NCBI RefSeq assembly: GCF_934924865.1
Contig: NZ_OW235315.1
Span: 62,001 to 126,000 of the forward strand
Direction: 5' to 3'
Origin: Tepidibacter aestuarii
GTDB lineage: Bacteria; Bacillota; Clostridia; Peptostreptococcales; Peptostreptococcaceae
DNA length: 64,000 nt
Part shown: piece by piece, positions 1,102-62,317 of the stretch
Layout of the letters: every line of letters starts with the position of its first letter
Position numbering within the stretch: the stretch's first letter is position 1
Position numbers and translations under genes: made by a program
Notes under the pieces: generated by a model
Seen by the model: only the letters and a program-made list of their open reading frames with translations
Databases searched by the model: none
Told to the model about the DNA's origin: nothing

Positions 1102-1175
1102 ATATGGGGCCTTTCTAAACTGAGTTTCTTTTGGTATAGTTTTGTTATACTATGTAAAATGAAAAGAGGGATTGT

Positions 1176-3099: not shown

Positions 3100-3164
3100 A
3101 GATTAAATAATCAAAAATTCACTGTTGAAACTTGTATACAATATTGATAAAATTAAATAGTTAT

Positions 3165-3250
3165 GGCTGACATCTAAATAAGAGTCTGACCATATCAGTA
3201 TGAAATTAAATTAAATAAAAAAAAAGTCTGGCATCTATATGAGCTAGAAC
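3165..3250 (+). promoter_or_regulatory. Tandem pan-motif RNA upstream of panT
   Basis: Two consecutive hairpins (3165-3191 and 3226-3250), each with one bulged A on each side of a central 5-bp helix. In copy 2 the pairs are 3226-3227 with 3249-3250, bulge A3248, 3228-3232 with 3243-3247, bulge A3233, and 3234-3235 with 3241-3242. Copy 1 has the same pattern with one U-U mismatch. Two bulged adenosines and frequent tandem copies near pantothenate genes are the described hallmarks of the pan motif. The GGAGGT ribosome site starts two bases after copy 2. Confidence 0.72.
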
Positions 3251-3264
3251 CGGAGGTGTAGAAA

Positions 3265-10081: not shown

Positions 10082-13001
<2,920 letters not shown>

Positions 13002-13179: not shown

Positions 13180-13222
13180 CTTTTTTTATGCGCTTTTTTA
13201 TTTATTGCATAGAGGTTAATCG

Positions 13223-13425
13223 AAAAAGATGGTTATTTAAATACCGTGAATGCATTAAATAGATTTATAAAACTAAATGTTCTATCTTATTAAATATACT
13301 AAAATCTCTTAAACTCGCTAAGGCTCAGACATAAGAAATTTTTTAACGTATATTTAAACGATACAACACAAGTTTTATTGAAATCTATTTAAAAGATTCA
13401 CTAACATTTAAATAACCATCTTTTT
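13223..13425 (+). repeat. Nested palindromic element, copy A1
   Basis: A 203-bp near-palindrome. Outer arms 13223-13242 and 13406-13425 are perfectly complementary (20 of 20). Inside are further helices (13278-13286 with 13360-13368; 13301-13310 with 13333-13342) around the apical loop AAACTCGCTAAGGCTCAGAC. An internal loop pairs TACCG on the left with CTAACA on the right. The same architecture recurs in copies A2 and A3 with different helix sequences. No ORF. Identity unknown; it may be a structured RNA or a non-autonomous mobile element. Confidence 0.85.
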
Positions 13426-13470
13426 AGTATGTAGATATACCAATAAAGCTAACGATTAAAGATAAAAGAT

Positions 13471-13482
13471 ATTACGTGGCTA
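13471..13482 (-). repeat. Inverted 12-base copy of the 5S rRNA 3' end
   Basis: ATTACGTGGCTA is the exact reverse complement of 13168-13179 (TAGCCACGTAAT) at the end of 5S. It lies between palindromes A1 and A2. It could be a relic of a 5S fragment or chance. Confidence 0.4.
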
Positions 13483-13582
13483 TTTGAAGAGATAAAATTT
13501 GTATAAAAAGATAAAAATATTTAGATTCCTTGGAGGAGCGTAAGCTTACTTTTTTTAATAGGAAATATAGATATAGAAAATA

Positions 13583-13630
13583 AGCTATCGCTTTAAGAAA
13601 TAACGGTTATCTATAGAAGTTGCGATAGCA
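13583..13630 (+). repeat. Hairpin between palindromes A1 and A2
   Basis: GCTATCGC (13584-13591) and GCGATAGC (13622-13629) form perfect 8-bp arms around about 30 bases. No T-run and no gene. Part of the about 700-bp gene-free stretch between 5S and the aminotransferase, which otherwise holds only palindromes A1 and A2. Confidence 0.55.
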
Positions 13631-13641
13631 GTATGAATATT

Positions 13642-13845
13642 AAAAAAATATACTTATTAAAATGTTAGCGAATTTACTAAATATTTTTCAATAAAACTTG
13701 CATTACAGTGTTTGAATATCCGTTAAGAAAGTTCGTTGTCTGAGCACAGCGAGTTTAGAACTTTTAGGATATTTAATAAGCTGTAATGATTAGTTTTATT
13801 TAAATATTTGATATATGAGCGGTATTTTAATAAGTATATTTTTTA
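13642..13845 (-). repeat. Nested palindromic element, copy A2 (opposite orientation)
   Basis: About 204 bp. Outer arms at 13642-13663 and 13824-13845 are complementary over about 21 bases. Read on the minus strand, its core aligns with A1: same apical loop (AAACTCGCTGTGCTCAGAC), same TACCG / CTAACA internal loop, same CTTATTAAAT and TTAACGGATATT segments. The helix at 13701-13708 with 13781-13788 (CATTACAG/CTGTAATG) replaces an unrelated sequence in A1 yet pairs perfectly. Confidence 0.85.
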
Positions 13846-13886
13846 GCTTATACACTATAGAAGTATATTATGATTGGGTTTATAGG

Positions 13887-15068
13887 TTAGATTATAGATT
13901 TAACGAATTCCTCAATACCTTTAATTCCATTAACTAAATTTTCTTCACTACAAGCATAAGAAATTCTTATATAATCATCCATTCCAAATGCTATTCCAGG
14001 AACTGCTGCTACATTATTATTAGATAAAAGCTTATCGCAGAATTCAACTGAAAAACTATCTTTATAATCAAGTTTAGACTTTAAATTAGAAATATCTATA
14101 AACATATAAAAAGCACCTTGTGGATGAATATAGTCTATATAGTCTATTTTAGAGAGCATATTTATGGCTAAATCTCTTTTTTGTTTATATATTTTAACCA
14201 TATCATCTATATCATTTAAACAGTATTTTAAGGCTCCATATGCGCACCATTGAGATATAGTAGATGGATGTGAAACTAGATGTCCTTGAACTGTAGAAAT
14301 GGCCTTAGAAATAGCTTTATTTGAAGCAGAATAACCAACTCTCATACCAGTCATGGCTGCAGATTTAGAAAAACCGTTTATAGTTATAGTTATATTTTTA
14401 GCTTCATTAGATAAAGATGCTATACTAACAAAATTATCTTCATAAGATATTTTTTCATAAATTTCATCTGATAGTATATATATATTGTTTTCAATACATA
14501 TATCAACTATATTCTCAAGCTCTTCTTTTGTATAAATAGCTCCAGTAGGATTTGATGGATTAGATATGAATAACATTTTTGTTTTAGATGTTATATGTCT
14601 TTTTATATCAGATACAGTTATCTTGAAATTATTTTTTTTATCAGTATCTACAAAAACCGGCACACCTGAACATAATTTTATCATTTCAGGATAACTAACC
14701 CAGTATGGTTTAGGAACCAAAACTTCATCACCTGGATTTAATATTGAAATCAAAGTATTAGTTATAGCGTGTTTTGCTCCGCTTGAAACAACTATTTCAT
14801 CTAAATTATAATCCACATTATTTTCGTGTTGTAACTTTTTTATAATTTCATGCTTTAATTCATTAAGACCCGAAACAATATCATACTTAGTCTTATTATT
14901 ATTTAAGGCATCAATAGCTACCTCTTTGGCTTTTGTAGGAACATTAAAATCGGGTTCCCCTATACTTAAATTAGATATATCAAAACCTTTTTCTTGAAGC
15001 TTAGCTACTTTTGAGCTTATACCTATAGTATAAGATGGTGTTATATTTTTCAATTTGTTAGAAATCAT
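13887..15068 (-). CDS. Class I/II PLP-dependent aminotransferase (aspartate aminotransferase type)
   Basis: Transfers amino groups between amino acids and 2-oxoacids using pyridoxal phosphate. The 393-residue protein shows the fold type I landmarks: SNPSNPTGAIY with N174, SDEIYEK with D201 and Y204, the PLP lysine in NGFSKSAAMTGMRVGY (K235, with R243), and RISYACSEENL near the C-terminus. The start has an AGGAGTGA site on the minus strand. It stands alone, divergent from cobQ. Subgroup I-gamma aspartate aminotransferase is the best guess; the exact amino donor is not readable. Confidence 0.9.
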   Translation of the reverse strand: MISNKLKNITPSYTIGISSKVAKLQEKGFDISNLSIGEPDFNVPTKAKEVAIDALNNNKTKYDIVSGLNELKHEIIKKLQHENNVDYNLDEIVVSSGAKHAITNTLISILNPGDEVLVPKPYWVSYPEMIKLCSGVPVFVDTDKKNNFKITVSDIKRHITSKTKMLFISNPSNPTGAIYTKEELENIVDICIENNIYILSDEIYEKISYEDNFVSIASLSNEAKNITITINGFSKSAAMTGMRVGYSASNKAISKAISTVQGHLVSHPSTISQWCAYGALKYCLNDIDDMVKIYKQKRDLAINMLSKIDYIDYIHPQGAFYMFIDISNLKSKLDYKDSFSVEFCDKLLSNNNVAAVPGIAFGMDDYIRISYACSEENLVNGIKGIEEFVKSII

Positions 15069-20684: not shown

Positions 20685-20716
20685 AAGAGAGGCTTAAGCC
20701 TCTCTTTTATTTTTAT
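20684..20716 (+). terminator. Terminator after nrdG
   Basis: Perfect stem AAAAGAGAGGCTT / AAGCCTCTCTTTT followed by ATTTTTA. Confidence 0.92.
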
Positions 20717-20720
20717 ATAA

Positions 20721-20777
20721 TGACACTCGTTCAAATATTAACTAAAAGAAGATAATATTTAAATGAGTGCCATTTTT
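20721..20777 (+). repeat. 20-bp inverted repeat in the nrdG-rRNA gap
   Basis: Arms 20721-20740 and 20753-20772 pair with two mismatches and one G-U, and are followed by TTTTTG, so this could act as a second terminator. The rest of the gap (20778-21130) is plain AT-rich DNA with no ORF or RNA that I recognise. Confidence 0.6.
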
Positions 20778-21133
20778 GAACTTGCATTTTTAGTGTTTGC
20801 ATAGATTAAATAATAAATTATAGAGTTTTTTTCTCTTAAATAGGGAATGCTGTATTGAAAAATAGGATGTAAAACTAAAAATATCCAATTAATTCGTTGT
20901 TTTTATAAAAAAATTTTGTATACACGTCATAAAATCAAAGAAAATATACATGTTAATCTTTAAAATAAATGTTTTTAATGACTAATTTAGACTATTTCAT
21001 ATAAAATTATAATAATTTTTTTGAAAAATCGTATAATGTAAAAAAATCCGTTTGAATGTTTAAATATAAACGTTTTGCCGCTTAATTAAATATGCGAAAA
21101 TAATAGAACTTAAAATTTATTTCAAAAAAAGTG

Positions 21134-29431: not shown

Positions 29432-29469
29432 TTAATAAAAAAAAATGTAAAAAAATTGCGAAATGATAT

Positions 29470-29494
29470 TGCAATTCTTATTGCATTTTTTTTT
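29470..29494 (+). terminator. Terminator after cdaAR
   Basis: TGCAAT / ATTGCA stem with TCTT loop and nine T. The stem is short (6 bp), but the T-run is strong. It separates the c-di-AMP genes from buk. Confidence 0.65.
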
Positions 29495-29546
29495 ATTTCA
29501 ATATATCATAATATACGTAGAGAAAAATTTCTTATGGGGTGATACT

Positions 29547-30632
29547 GTGTCAAAGAATTATGTTCTTGTTATTAATCCAGGTTCAACTTCGACAAAAGTG
29601 GCTTTATTCAAAGAAAATGAAAACGTTATCCAAAAAAATCTAACTCATTCAACAGAAGAAATAGAAAAATATGATAAAATAGCAGACCAATTTGAAATGA
29701 GAAAAGACATTATAATAAATTGGTTAAAAGAAGAAGGCTATACATGTAAAGACCTTATAGCAGTAGTTGGTAGAGGTGGTTTGTTAAGACCTATGCCAGG
29801 TGGTACATATAAGGTTACGCCTAAGATGGTAGATGATTTAAAATTAGGGGTTCAAGGAGAACATGCATCAAATTTAGGTGGAATAATAGCAAAATCAATA
29901 GCTGATGAGCAAAACATACTAAGCTTTATAGTTGATCCAGTTGCAGTAGATGAATTTGAGGAAATTGCTAGAATATCTGGAATTCCTGAAATTAAAAGAA
30001 GATCTTTAGGACACGCTTTAAATATAAAAGCGGTTGGAAGAAGAGTTGCTACAAAACTAGGTGAAAACTTTGAAGGTATAAACATGATAGTAGCTCACCT
30101 TGGAGGGGGAATAAGTGTTGCTCCTTTAAAAAAAGGAAAGTCAGTAGATTATAATAATGCAAATGAGATGGGACCATTCTCGCCAGAAAGAACGGGCGGA
30201 CTTCCAATAGGAGATTTAGCTAAATTGTGTTTTTCAGGAAAATATACTTACAAAGAGATTAAAGCTAAGCTTAAAGGCAAGGGTGGACTTGTAGGATACC
30301 TTAACACAAATGATGCTAGAGAGGTTACAAAGAGGATAAATGAAGGTGATGAAAAAGCAAAACTTATATTCGAAGCTATGGGATATCAAATAGCAAAAGA
30401 AATAGGATCTATGGCAACAGTATTAAACGGAGATATAAAAGCAATAGTAATTACTGGAGGACTTGCGTACTCTGAGTATTTAATAGATTATATAAAAAAT
30501 ATGGTAGATTTTATTGCACCTGTAATAGTTGAGCCTGGTGAAGATGAAATGATGGCTTTAAATGAGGGAGCATTAAGAGTTATAAATGATGAAGAAAACG
30601 CTAAAATATACGAAGAAGAGGTGACATTCTAA
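29547..30632 (+). CDS. buk: Butyrate / branched-chain fatty acid kinase, copy 1
   Basis: ASKHA-fold acid kinase that converts acyl-phosphate plus ADP into free acid plus ATP. From GTG 29547 (GGGGTG site) it has 361 residues, with [15 protein letters not shown], the GRGGLLRP segment, AHLGGGISV and [14 protein letters not shown]. An upstream in-frame ATG at about 29463 lies in the terminator and has no ribosome site. It overlaps ptb by one base. Genomic context (Vor downstream) suggests isobutyrate, isovalerate or 2-methylbutyrate as products. Confidence 0.93.
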   Translation: MSKNYVLVINPGSTSTKVALFKENENVIQKNLTHSTEEIEKYDKIADQFEMRKDIIINWLKEEGYTCKDLIAVVGRGGLLRPMPGGTYKVTPKMVDDLKLGVQGEHASNLGGIIAKSIADEQNILSFIVDPVAVDEFEEIARISGIPEIKRRSLGHALNIKAVGRRVATKLGENFEGINMIVAHLGGGISVAPLKKGKSVDYNNANEMGPFSPERTGGLPIGDLAKLCFSGKYTYKEIKAKLKGKGGLVGYLNTNDAREVTKRINEGDEKAKLIFEAMGYQIAKEIGSMATVLNGDIKAIVITGGLAYSEYLIDYIKNMVDFIAPVIVEPGEDEMMALNEGALRVINDEENAKIYEEEVTF

Positions 30633-31537: not shown

Positions 31538-31587
31538 TTAATATAATAAATAAAAATAATATATTGACTAAGGAGAGAATAATTTCT

Positions 31588-32661
31588 ATGAGTAAAAATT
31601 TCAAAATTCTTGCTATAAACCCGGGTTCAACTTCTACTAAGATCGCTGTATATGCAGGTGAAGAATTAGTATTTGAAAAAACATTAAGACATTCTGCTGA
31701 AGAAATAGGTCAATATGAGAAAATATCAGACCAACTTGATTTTAGAAGAAATGTAATAGAAGAAGCTGTAAGTGAAAATGGAGTTAAAATAGAAGATTTA
31801 GATGCAATAGTTGGAAGAGGAGGACTTTTAAAGCCTATAGCTGGAGGAACTTATGCAGTTTCTGAAGGAATGATAGAAGACTTAAAAGTTGGAGTTTTAG
31901 GAGAGCATGCGTCAAACTTAGGTGGAATAATAGCAAAAGAAATAGCTGAAAAAATAGATGTTCCATCATTCATAGTAGATCCTGTTGTTGTTGATGAACT
32001 TCAAGACGTTGCTAGAATATCTGGTATGCCAGAACTTGAGAGAAAAAGTATATTCCATGCTCTAAATCAAAAAGCTACAGCTAGAAGAGCAGCTGATGAA
32101 TTAGGTAAAAAATATGAAGAAATAAACGTAATAGTAGCTCACCTTGGTGGTGGAGTATCTGTTGGAGCTCACGAAAATGGTAGAGTTATAGATGTTGCAA
32201 ATGCACTTGATGGAGAAGGTCCATTCTCTCCAGAAAGAACAGGCGGACTTCCAGTTGGAGATTTAGCTAAAATGTGTTTCTCTGGAAAATACACATTAGA
32301 TGATATAAAGAAAAAGATAAAAGGAAATGGTGGAATAGTAGCATACTTAGGAACTAACGATGCTAGAGAAGTTGAAGCCATGATAGAAGAAGGAAATGAA
32401 AAAGCTAAGCTTATATACCAAGCAATGGCTTACCAAGTAGCAAAAGAAATTGGAGCATGTTCTGCTGTTCTTAAGGGTAGGGTTGATGCTATAGTATTAA
32501 CTGGTGGTATAGCTTACTCAAAGATGATGGTAGAATGGATAAAAGAAAGAGTTTCTTTCATTGGAGATATCAAAGTATATGCTGGTGAAGATGAAATGAC
32601 AGCTTTAGCTCAAGGTGGACTTAGAGTTCTTAGAGGTGAAGAGGAAGCTAAAACTTACTAA
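31588..32661 (+). CDS. buk: Butyrate / branched-chain fatty acid kinase, copy 2
   Basis: Second acid kinase of the cluster, 357 residues from ATG 31588 (AAGGAGAG site ten bases upstream; the earlier TTG has no site). It has the same motifs as the first copy ([38 protein letters not shown]) but is clearly diverged in sequence, so it is not a recent duplicate. The two kinases may differ in chain preference. Confidence 0.93.
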
Positions 32662-38890: not shown

Positions 38891-38910
38891 GATAATTAAA
38901 ACTTTACAAA

Positions 38911-39062
38911 AAAAGCGCTAGGGCTAAATATTATTTAGTTGACGAGGCCAGGGAGTATCGATTATCGGCGGGTGCCCTGCGGTGATTTTGCCATCGTTAG
39001 AGCTTAACAAAGCATATGAGTGATTGTATGTACAAAAAAGGCTTGAGCAAAAAGACCTTTCT
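38911..39062 (+). ncRNA. glmS ribozyme (GlcN6P-responsive, self-cleaving)
   Basis: Directly upstream of glmS. It has the conserved GCGCTAGGGCT start, AGTTGACGAGG, TATCGA...TCGGCGGGTGCCC and the GAGCTTAACAAAGCA pseudoknot region. Cleavage is predicted between A38914 and G38915, just 5' of GCGC. The known class uses glucosamine-6-phosphate as cofactor, so that product accumulation destroys the glmS message. Confidence 0.93.
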
Positions 39063-45160: not shown

Positions 45161-46336
45161 ATGAATGCTAATGATTTAATCAAAGATACTATAGATAAGA
45201 AAGAATTAATTCAATTAGTTCTTAGCAATAAAAGAAATAAAGAGTTAGAGTACAACAAAATAAATATAAGACCTATAGAAATAAAAAATGACTTTATGTA
45301 TCAGTTTACCTATATATATGCTAATAAAGAAATACACAAAAACTTATCACCTAAAGAATGCACTGATGAAATAATAGATAATATAAACGGAAACTTTAAG
45401 CAAGCTCAGATGTATTGTGTCAACAATGACTATCAAATACTTATAAGCAAAAAATTAAAGGCCACTGTGTTAAAGAAGAAAGCAACTAAAAAGCCTGTTG
45501 ATACATCTCATAATAGAAAGAAAAAATATATACTAGAAGAGGATGTTCCGTGTGATTTTCTTCAGTATCTAGGAGTTATGAATGAAAATGGAAATGTCAA
45601 AAAACAAAAGAGAGATAAGTTTAGACAGCTAAATAGATTTTTAGAGATGGTCAAGGATGTAGAATTGAATTTTGATAAAAATAAGAAAATAAAGATTATA
45701 GACTTTGGATGTGGAAAGTCTTATCTTACGTTTGCTATGTACTATTACCTTGTGAAGATAGCTAAATTCAACGTTGAAATAGTAGGACTTGATCTTAAAA
45801 AAGATGTTATAGAGTATTGTAATAAGGTTGCTAGGGAATTAAATTATGAGAATTTGAGCTTCCAAATAGGTAATATATCTGATTTTAATGAATTTACAGA
45901 GGTTGATATGGTAGTAACTCTTCATGCTTGTGATATAGCTACTGATATGGCATTATTTAAAGCTATTTGCTGGAATAGTAAAGTTATATTATCAGTTCCG
46001 TGCTGTCAGCATGAGTTAAATTCACAGATAAAAAATGATTTGTTAAGTCCCATGTTAAAGCATGGGATAATAAAAGAAAGATTTTCATCTCTTGCGACAG
46101 ATTCAATAAGAGCTAATCTTCTTGAGATACTTGGATATAATACTCAGATATTAGAATTTATAGAGACTGAGCATACTCCTAAGAACCTTTTAATAAGAGG
46201 TGTTAAATCTAGAGACAAAGTAAATAAATCTCTTGTCGATGAATATAAACAATTTAAGAAATTCTTAAATGCAAGTCCTTATTTAGAAAAGTTACTTTTA
46301 GAGAATAACATTATATCAAAAGAACAGCTAATATAG
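45161..46336 (+). CDS. Class I SAM-dependent methyltransferase (Methyltransf_32 type)
   Basis: The 391-residue protein. The SAM site is KIIDFGCGKSYLTFAMYYYL (motif I) and VEIVGLDLKK (motif II), then MVVTLHACDIATD (motif IV) and VPCCQHELNSQ, the conserved cysteine segment of this family. The N-terminal 130 residues are a lysine-rich domain of unknown role that may bind RNA. Substrate unknown. Monocistronic; its terminator overlaps the stop codon. Confidence 0.82.
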   Translation: MNANDLIKDTIDKKELIQLVLSNKRNKELEYNKINIRPIEIKNDFMYQFTYIYANKEIHKNLSPKECTDEIIDNINGNFKQAQMYCVNNDYQILISKKLKATVLKKKATKKPVDTSHNRKKKYILEEDVPCDFLQYLGVMNENGNVKKQKRDKFRQLNRFLEMVKDVELNFDKNKKIKIIDFGCGKSYLTFAMYYYLVKIAKFNVEIVGLDLKKDVIEYCNKVARELNYENLSFQIGNISDFNEFTEVDMVVTLHACDIATDMALFKAICWNSKVILSVPCCQHELNSQIKNDLLSPMLKHGIIKERFSSLATDSIRANLLEILGYNTQILEFIETEHTPKNLLIRGVKSRDKVNKSLVDEYKQFKKFLNASPYLEKLLLENNIISKEQLI

Positions 46337-46347
46337 CTGTTCTTTTA
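46321..46347 (+). terminator. Terminator overlapping the methyltransferase stop
   Basis: AGAACAGCTA / TAGCTGTTCT stem followed by TTTAG. Confidence 0.82.
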
Positions 46348-46485
46348 GATTGCTTGAAGGATTCAAAAAGAGATTATTATTGAATAAAATGAATTTAATC
46401 ATCAAAAAAAGATATATATAGTTTAAAAATAGCTCTAATTAAGTTATAATATAGTGGATTACATAGGTTAATAAGGGGGATATTG

Positions 46486-55945: not shown

Positions 55946-56377
55946 ATGCTTAATGTAGATGAAATAAAAAAGATAATACCACATAGATACCCTTTTCTAC
56001 TAGTGGATAAAGTAGTTGAATTAGAAGAAGGTAAAAGAGCAGTTGGTATAAAGAATGTAACTGTAAATGAGCCTTTCTTCCAAGGTCATTTCCCGGATTA
56101 TCCTTTAATGCCAGGTGTTTTAATTGTTGAAGCTATGGCTCAAGTGGGAGCAGTTGCTATGATGACAGTAGAAGAAAACAAGGGAAAATTAGGAGTTTTC
56201 ACAGGAATAGATAAAGTTAGATTTAGAAAAGAAGTAAGACCAGGAGATACTCTTAAAATGGAAGTTGAAATGATAGCTATGAGAAGAGGAATAGGAAAAG
56301 CAGAAGCTAAGGCTTATGTTGGAGAAGAATTAGCTTGTAGTGGAACTTTAATGTTTGCATTGGTAGATAAAAACTAA
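55946..56377 (+). CDS. fabZ: 3-hydroxyacyl-ACP dehydratase FabZ
   Basis: Hot-dog-fold dehydratase of type II fatty acid synthesis. The 143-residue protein has [13 protein letters not shown] and the catalytic H48 and E62 in [30 protein letters not shown] precedes ATG 55946. It stands apart from other fab genes, next to flagellar genes, as in Bacillus subtilis. Confidence 0.97.
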
Positions 56378-56404
56378 AATTTCAAAAGTGTTAGTACTTA
56401 AGAG

Positions 56405-56607
56405 AAAAATGAAGCCCATTAAAATAACGATACTTAATTAATATTTTTATAAAACTAAAGACAGCGTCTTATTAAATGCCCTAAAACTTCATAAACTCAC
56501 TATGTCCAAACAATGAAGTTTTTTAACGGGTATTTAAACGACGCAGTCTAAGTTTTATAGAAAAATATTAATCAAAAGTATCTAACATTTTAATGAGCTT
56601 CATTTTT
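56405..56607 (+). repeat. Nested palindromic element, copy A3
   Basis: 203 bp, the same length as A1. Outer arms 56405-56425 and 56587-56607 pair with one G-U. Helix 56459-56468 pairs with 56540-56549, and 56483-56492 pairs perfectly with 56513-56522. Loop AAACTCACTATGTCCAAAC resembles A1 and A2. Internal loop TAACG / CTAACA. Occupies the fabZ-AEC gap with A4. Confidence 0.85.
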
Positions 56608-56662
56608 AATATTTATACTTAAATGTTTAAGTATGTTCATAAAAGTTTTTTATATATTGAGG

Positions 56663-56821
56663 AAAATCTTATTCAATAATAGTTATTAAAATTAAAAATA
56701 TGTCTATGAAAATGTTAGCTAATCTTTTATATATTTCTCTTAACGACTTAGAGAAATATATAGTATATTAGCGGTATTTTTATAGACATATTTTAATAAC
56801 TTACATATAATAAAGATTTTT
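56663..56821 (-). repeat. Palindromic element, copy A4 (shortened, opposite orientation)
   Basis: About 159 bp. Read on the minus strand, it keeps the outer arms and the TACCG / CTAACA internal loop, but the distal half is replaced by one simple hairpin around 56732-56762 (TATATTTCTCT / AGAGAAATATA). Same + then - pairing with A3 as A1 with A2. Confidence 0.75.
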
Positions 56822-56898
56822 TATTATGGATGAATTTATAGACAAATTTTCTTTAAATAGTATATTATAGTAGGATAATAAACTTTGGGGGTATAATT

Positions 56899-62129: not shown

Positions 62130-62163
62130 AGACTGAGTCAGTTAATTGAATACAATCTTAATA

Positions 62164-62317
62164 CCTTATTAAGAGAGGTGGAGGGAATAGGCCCGATGAA
62201 ACCCAGCAACCATCCAGTAATGGAGAATGGTGCTAATTCCTACAAAGCTAAGCTTTGGAAGATGAGGTCTAATTTAAGTTCGAATTAGTCTCTTCTTTTG
62301 CGGAAGAGATTTTTTTA
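62164..62317 (+). promoter_or_regulatory. SAM-I riboswitch (S-box) with expression-platform terminator
   Basis: Aptamer 62164-62267: P1 arms CCTTATT / GATGAGG, the conserved AGAGAGGTGGAGGGA, CCCGATGAAACCCAGCAACC and GGTGCTAATTCCTAC. A terminator at 62288-62317 (TCTCTTC / GGAAGAGA then T-run) gives the off state at high SAM. Controls metK, the SAM synthase. Confidence 0.96.

Follow-up and report, generated by a model that had tools for sequence, protein, structure and literature searches.

A dispersed, probably MITE-like family of intergenic palindromes in Tepidibacter in which folding of one strand is under selection

What kind of genetic element is a long hairpin that recurs within one stretch of DNA, with helices that differ in sequence from copy to copy and remain paired? 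The question arose from a first-pass annotation of a 64,000-nt stretch of the genome of Tepidibacter aestuarii (hereafter, the window), which is part of a 3.63-Mb contig. Three elements (A1–A3) had been described there as long multi-helix hairpins, and none of 200 dinucleotide shuffles of each folded as well as the original: A1 reached −58.8 kcal/mol (z −11.7; on the strand read in that annotation, hereafter the read strand), A2 −49.4 kcal/mol (z −9.2), and A3 −70.4 kcal/mol (z −15.0). The helix triplets and loop sequences that had been quoted are present in the DNA. The three elements are thus real, but their count overlooked a fourth, shorter copy (A4; z about −8.3) lying ∼80 bp beyond A3, and a decayed 65-nt remnant (Table 1). 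A1 is located after a 5S rRNA gene (plus strand), and A3 directly past an ORF that stops at 56377, which we take to be fabZ (this name and the pur gene names were assumed from the translations). The members of each pair, A1/A2 and A3/A4, share a single intergenic region with their 5′ ends facing each other, as do others in the same genome (G000) and in the congener G003, and those at two loci of G006. Consistent with the earlier statement that no described family was recognised, Rfam covariance models gave no match up to an E-value of 1 in 13180–13900 and 56380–56880. Elsewhere in the window, Rfam-type matches include a pan motif at 3164–3255 (barely above the cut-off); a glmS ribozyme lies at 38903–39054 and a SAM riboswitch at 62163–62268. 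The ORFs 29463–30632 and 31564–32661 form a tandem paralogue pair, with stretches of 77–84% identical DNA between 29826–30407 and 31870–32454.

Table 1. Elements in the window, sites that differ between species, and insertion sequences (IS) at terminator-like stems.
Feature	Position	Structured strand	Remarks
A1, full-length element	13221..13428 (first-pass annotation: 13223–13425)	−	nested rod of ∼203 nt
A2, full-length element	13641..13845 (first-pass annotation: 13642–13845)	+	nested rod of ∼203 nt
A3, full-length element	56404..56609 (first-pass annotation: 56405–56607)	−	nested rod of ∼203 nt
A4, shortened element	56691..56797	+	outer helix, first internal loop and simple stem
Decayed 65-nt mini-hairpin of the family	20715..20779	−	29.9 bits with model R2, E 2.3e-4
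G003 copy missing from G000	near window 1107–1152		no element recognised in G000
G003 full-length copy	window 20715–20733		mini remnant in G000 (20715–20779, alignment with G003)
G003 copy missing from G000	window 46306–46359		terminator-like hairpin there in G000 and G001
IS-at-stem loci	L154, L162, L163, L167–L169, L171, L172, L174, L175, L182, L184, L186, L187		upstream of transposase
IS-at-stem locus	L149, about 11880–11915		

Covariation around kept loops had been taken as a mark of selection on a folded single strand, and this was borne out far above background once many copies were aligned. When 39 copies were aligned on the read strand, two-sided changes were found at 36 of 58 consensus pairs; when 56 copies were aligned on the complementary strand, two-sided compensatory changes were found at 46 of 72. 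In the latter alignment, 96.2% of the pair cells were paired, compared with 81.1% in shuffles and 41–50% in slid controls, a measure that is favoured by the consensus structure having been derived from the same alignment. Cells with two-sided changes numbered 560, compared with 147 in shuffles, and none of 500 shuffles attained any of five covariation measures. Such an excess of compensatory changes over controls is what characterizes a structured RNA. The unpaired stretches that are kept comprise the apical loop (UGUYUGASC-n3/4-GSGAGUU on the structured strand) and internal loops with recurrent CGUUA- and UUUAG-like strands. The apical loop is conserved as a motif, as had been claimed, but A3 deviates from it at three positions. 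The outer 20-bp arms, said to differ completely between copies, in fact vary at positions within a common AT-rich frame. An element measures ∼200 nt (∼205 nt), to which an outer helix adds some 20 nt per side, and the outer stem is bordered by A5 and T5, which makes it terminator-like on both strands.

Selection on the read strand would be expected to tolerate G.U and to avoid A.C at paired positions. The opposite was observed, with 152 A.C versus 47 G.U mismatches in 87 distinct copies (p 4e-14), or 34 versus 13 when counted by pair. As RNA, the complement was more stable in 87 of 87 copies of the genus (mean difference 15.1 kcal/mol), in all 39 distinct distant members (12.6 kcal/mol), and in 25 of 25 phylum-level loci whose nested pairs numbered 35 or more (7.9 kcal/mol; 15 genomes including G000). 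For these counts, identical copies were considered once, which reduced 90 genus copies to 87 and 41 distant rows to 39; the phylum-level set represents 25 of 39 loci, as 14 with fewer than 35 nested pairs were excluded, and so was L276, which holds N. Since the copies are related, 87 of 87 does not correspond to 87 independent events, and the argument is carried by the count made per pair and by the range of genera involved. Covariance model R2, built on the structured strand, scored A1 with 161.5 bits on the minus versus 33 on the plus strand, A2 with 168.9 on the plus versus 34.2 on the minus strand, A3 with 195.5 on the minus versus 48.7 on the plus strand, and A4 with 58 on the plus versus 25.3 bits on the minus strand. 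The mismatch bias was present irrespective of whether the neighbouring gene was convergent (111 A.C, 38 G.U; 72 copies) or co-directional (37 A.C, 9 G.U; 14 copies), the two classes being alike (p 0.55). The bias is therefore intrinsic to the element, and an origin of the A.C excess in the replication strand or in transcript avoidance was rejected. Thus, structural selection acts on the complement of the strand that had been read. Judged from sequence, the folded form is likelier to be RNA; ssDNA is a less likely candidate, to be considered because G.T beats A.C in DNA as well.

Selection is not only specific to one strand; that strand is also antisense to the neighbouring gene. Read along this strand, 72 of 86 genus copies end towards the 3′ end of a convergent gene, at a distance of 3–69 bp in 58 cases, and the same tail-to-tail placement was found in 32 of 40 distant rows (32 of 38 distinct ones, as two G006 places were counted twice). 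Some distant copies are situated between co-directional genes resembling one operon. Targeting of intrinsic terminators was not evident: a terminator was found within 90 nt upstream (on the read strand) in 20 of 86 copies, compared with 18 of 102 stops of long ORFs.

With model R1, at least 49 copies of full length were detected in the genome of the window, along with a tail of shorter ones. With A1 as the query, BLASTN yielded 51 matches (some places being matched on both strands) in this genome. Each of three congeners gave 97–150 matches, opposite-strand echoes included, as is the case for all counts at loose E-values. Copy numbers are lower bounds because at most 150, 59, or 6 candidates were scored per genome (in the window's own genome, in 41 close genomes, and in the order, respectively). 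Short, dispersed, non-coding, intergenic palindromes of ∼205 nt in at least 49 copies correspond to what is termed a MITE. Of the shortened copies, 20 were read, and many are ∼62-nt basal pieces made up of the outer helix together with some of the first internal loop. Target-primed reverse transcription was set aside since shortening has left symmetric remnants, either basal or apical, rather than 5′-truncated ones.

At the A3 site, an element is present in all four genomes of the genus, which indicates that much is inherited. In G003, flanks and outer arms at this site are as in G001, with an interior from another subfamily, and G002 carries two tandem copies. A4 is found in G000 only, with no counterpart at the orthologous place in G001–G003. 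Synteny comparison also revealed three copies of G003 for which G000 has no full-length equivalent (Table 1), the third of these sites having been compared without G002, whose slice ended short of it. Between species, copies thus differ by gain or loss, by exchange of their interiors, and by internal deletion. Target duplication was not detected in the genus, as direct flank similarity within copies did not exceed that between copies (p 0.75, n = 87), and the genus copies have no fixed terminal inverted repeat (TIR). Inverted copies of host sequence occur in the flanks of some elements. Among the loci concerned (window at about 13466–13484, L002, L003, L004, L006, and L040), the rRNA-linked copies are followed by the 5S 3′ end in inverted form, and at L006, 35 nt that include the tail of the upstream gene recur inverted on the downstream side. 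Template switching at the hairpin could be the source of such copies. In one G001 element (L149 11988–12194), the inner part is inverted relative to the outer part, and the model scores of the two strands are nearly equal (109.5 versus 96 bits).

Outside the genus, relatives were detected with R1 in 11 of 41 close genomes. With R2, and with no more than 6 candidates scored in each genome, they were detected in at least 31 of 393 genomes of the order, representing 21 of 158 genera. The apical motif was found in 32 of 398 genomes of the phylum, of which 20 contained two or more matches (up to 38). The reversed motif, used as a control, matched 5 genomes, once each, so that chance accounts for some of the 12 single matches, for example, two that resemble coding sequence. 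In G398, G421, and G664, motif pairs 274–441 bp apart are oriented as in pairs of the A1/A2 type. At E up to 0.01, R2 matches were obtained at 15 of the 39 phylum-level loci retrieved, in the case of L260 at a place other than the motif, and at no locus from G723 or G765; these two genomes are linked to the family only via apical motif and strand bias, and the phylum-wide motif could be partly convergent. The seven motif copies fetched from G599 (L262–L268) have near-identical cores and slightly differing outer arms and lie at or near contig ends, as is expected of near-identical repeats; the pattern is as expected for recent amplification. A blastn search of plasmids and phages with one genus copy, and a search of viral contigs with two exact patterns, both sensitive to close relatives only, gave no match. 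The sole match of a pattern scan of genome contigs (L118) was dismissed as chance because its fold is unlike the element.

Mobility was demonstrated in one distant genome, G723, which is tied to the family at the level of the motif. There, the motif resides inside elements of 222–424 bp with ends (TIR) GAGACYRCTGA, and duplications of 8–12 bp were present at 12 of 18 TIR-bounded intervals (9 exact, 3 with one mismatch; counted with no shuffled control), identical elements and those with less than 14 nt of flank being excluded. Among distinct motif-bearing places, five of six showed a duplication. No transposase ORF was evident between adjacent facing ends in 30 fetched G723 loci, and no partner transposase was found for the family. 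For the genus of the window, mobility is inferred from copy number and site differences, and these, together with the duplications in G723, agree with the mobile system that the annotation had suggested.

A second connection to mobile DNA was found in G009, where three IS copies carry the hairpin at a position flanked by the IS end and the transposase gene, and a solo IS end (L098) carries it as well. Judging from translations, these IS copies and a decayed transposase relic in G001, directly downstream of the L149 element, presumably belong to the IS1182 family. At 15 loci, an IS1182-like IS, with an end of the CAGACTG/CAGAGCG type, starts immediately at the 3′ base of a palindromic stem that resembles a terminator (Table 1), which suggests that IS1182-like insertion sequences target such stems.

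Taken together, A1–A4 probably represent, and we hold this with moderate confidence, an undescribed, widespread, non-autonomous MITE-like intergenic family of which a folded strand, probably RNA, is selected. Copy number, covariation, strand asymmetry, site differences, spread, the G723 duplications, and the IS copies of G009 support this reading; it is weakened by the lack of target duplication in the genus, the failure to find a transposase, inheritance at the A3 site, the fact that G723 and G765 are tied to the family only by motif and strand bias, the possible convergence of part of the phylum-wide motif, and the lack of close relatives in plasmids, phages, and the viral contigs searched. 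The elements would be moved as DNA by a transposase supplied in trans and differing by lineage, while selection would preserve the folded strand, most likely as an RNA transcribed from part of the copies. Sites just past the 3′ ends of genes would be those where insertions are tolerated, and the copies in the window would be either old or moved by a route that leaves no duplication. A rather unlikely competitor is a structured element with a function for the host, multiplied by duplication and gene conversion. It could be a small antisense RNA or, at 3′ ends, could terminate transcription, stabilise mRNA, or bind a protein. The tail-to-tail placement, the terminator-like outer stem, and the retention of A3 at orthologous sites would fit such a function, as would promoter-like scores upstream that marginally exceed those of Markov shuffles (8.58 versus 8.47 ± 0.05). 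However, the best promoter-like sites are scattered, with no conserved promoter at a fixed distance in the genus, conservation ends ∼10 nt beyond the element, the distribution is patchy, copies occur inside apparent operons, and sites were lost or shrunk to mini-hairpins in sister species.

Descent of the family from IS1182-type insertion sequences, with the hairpin formerly in the IS 5′ region, would explain the G009 copies, the solo end, and the position before the G001 relic; it is improbable, as IS1182-like loci of 17 other genomes gave no full-length hairpin match (some of these loci cover part of the IS only), the IS end is confined to the G009 copies, the genus copies having other flanks, and the transposase has no match at E 1e-20 in G000, G002, and G003. 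Still less credence is given to an old palindrome free of structural selection, whose arms would be kept complementary by template switching during replication. The inverted host flanks beside L006, L040, and the rRNA-linked copies, and inverted flank similarity within copies (p 0.016), point in this direction, but correction of the arms would close the conserved internal loops as well, and it fails to predict that A.C outnumbers G.U on one strand regardless of orientation. Movement as ssDNA by a Y1 (RAYT/IS200-like) transposase, as for REP/REPIN elements, is the least plausible explanation and a highly improbable one, despite the nested imperfect palindrome and the strand-specific folding. 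Y1 genes are present in the element-bearing genomes G003, G006, G021, G024, G030, and G034, and in G002 (C29:86303–86497), only 3 bp separate an element from what is left of a broken IS200-like Y1 transposase gene. On the other hand, no Y1 transposase was found in G001, G009, and G026, that of G000 is a short fragment only, and many of the 28 of 41 genomes with a match have no elements.

A bolder reading, which we consider doubtful, is that of a phylum-wide module with selected folding of one strand, which may spread in unrelated vehicles (free-standing, IS1182-type, and TIR-bearing MITEs) and whose loops, in RNA or ssDNA, may be read by a protein, leaving the helices free in sequence. If true, this would amount to a structure-recognising route of mobilisation or regulation that is undescribed for bacterial repeats; should the link to TIR elements and IS1182 hold, one structural module would be common to different mobile elements across the phylum. 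Irrespective of this, the family is large, easily modelled, absent from Rfam, and, in one genus, present with dozens of copies in each genome. Retention of G.U with shedding of A.C offers a way to tell, from sequence only, which of the two strands of a palindromic repeat adopts the fold in vivo, and may be applicable to ERIC, bcr1, BOX, and other repeats whose nature as RNA or DNA is disputed.

Literature searches, which included sequence strings of the element, returned no matching description, although one may exist outside the literature searched. Provisionally, the family works like ERIC-type repeats. In the available parts of the sources, ERIC/IRU elements are intergenic, ∼100–200 bp long, and multi-copy, and ERIC is named in E. 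coli, Yersinia, and Vibrio (PMC2267715, PMC2229807). These traits of the enterobacterial and Vibrio repeats are shared by the window's family, which differs, as far as those parts describe ERIC/IRU, in helices that covary around kept internal and apical loops, in a constraint antisense to the adjacent gene, and in relatives that span an order and, by motif, a phylum. bcr1 and other stem-loop repeats of Firmicutes, compared here by description only and from part of the source, are likewise dispersed in chromosomes with a common predicted secondary structure; the bcr1 model has 167 nt, and the clostridial stem-loop families, at 31–93 nt (PMC2267715), are shorter than the ∼205 nt of the family described here. 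MITEs are, like this family, non-autonomous and palindromic, and the G723 elements have both TIR and 8–12-bp duplications; in contrast, the genus copies have neither duplication nor fixed TIR, and covariation with kept loops is not predicted by recognition of terminal repeats alone. In integron attC sites, the fold is conserved, the sequence is variable, and a single strand folds. The family resembles them in keeping fold over sequence and in having one folding strand, but is dispersed, whereas attC sites occur in arrays.
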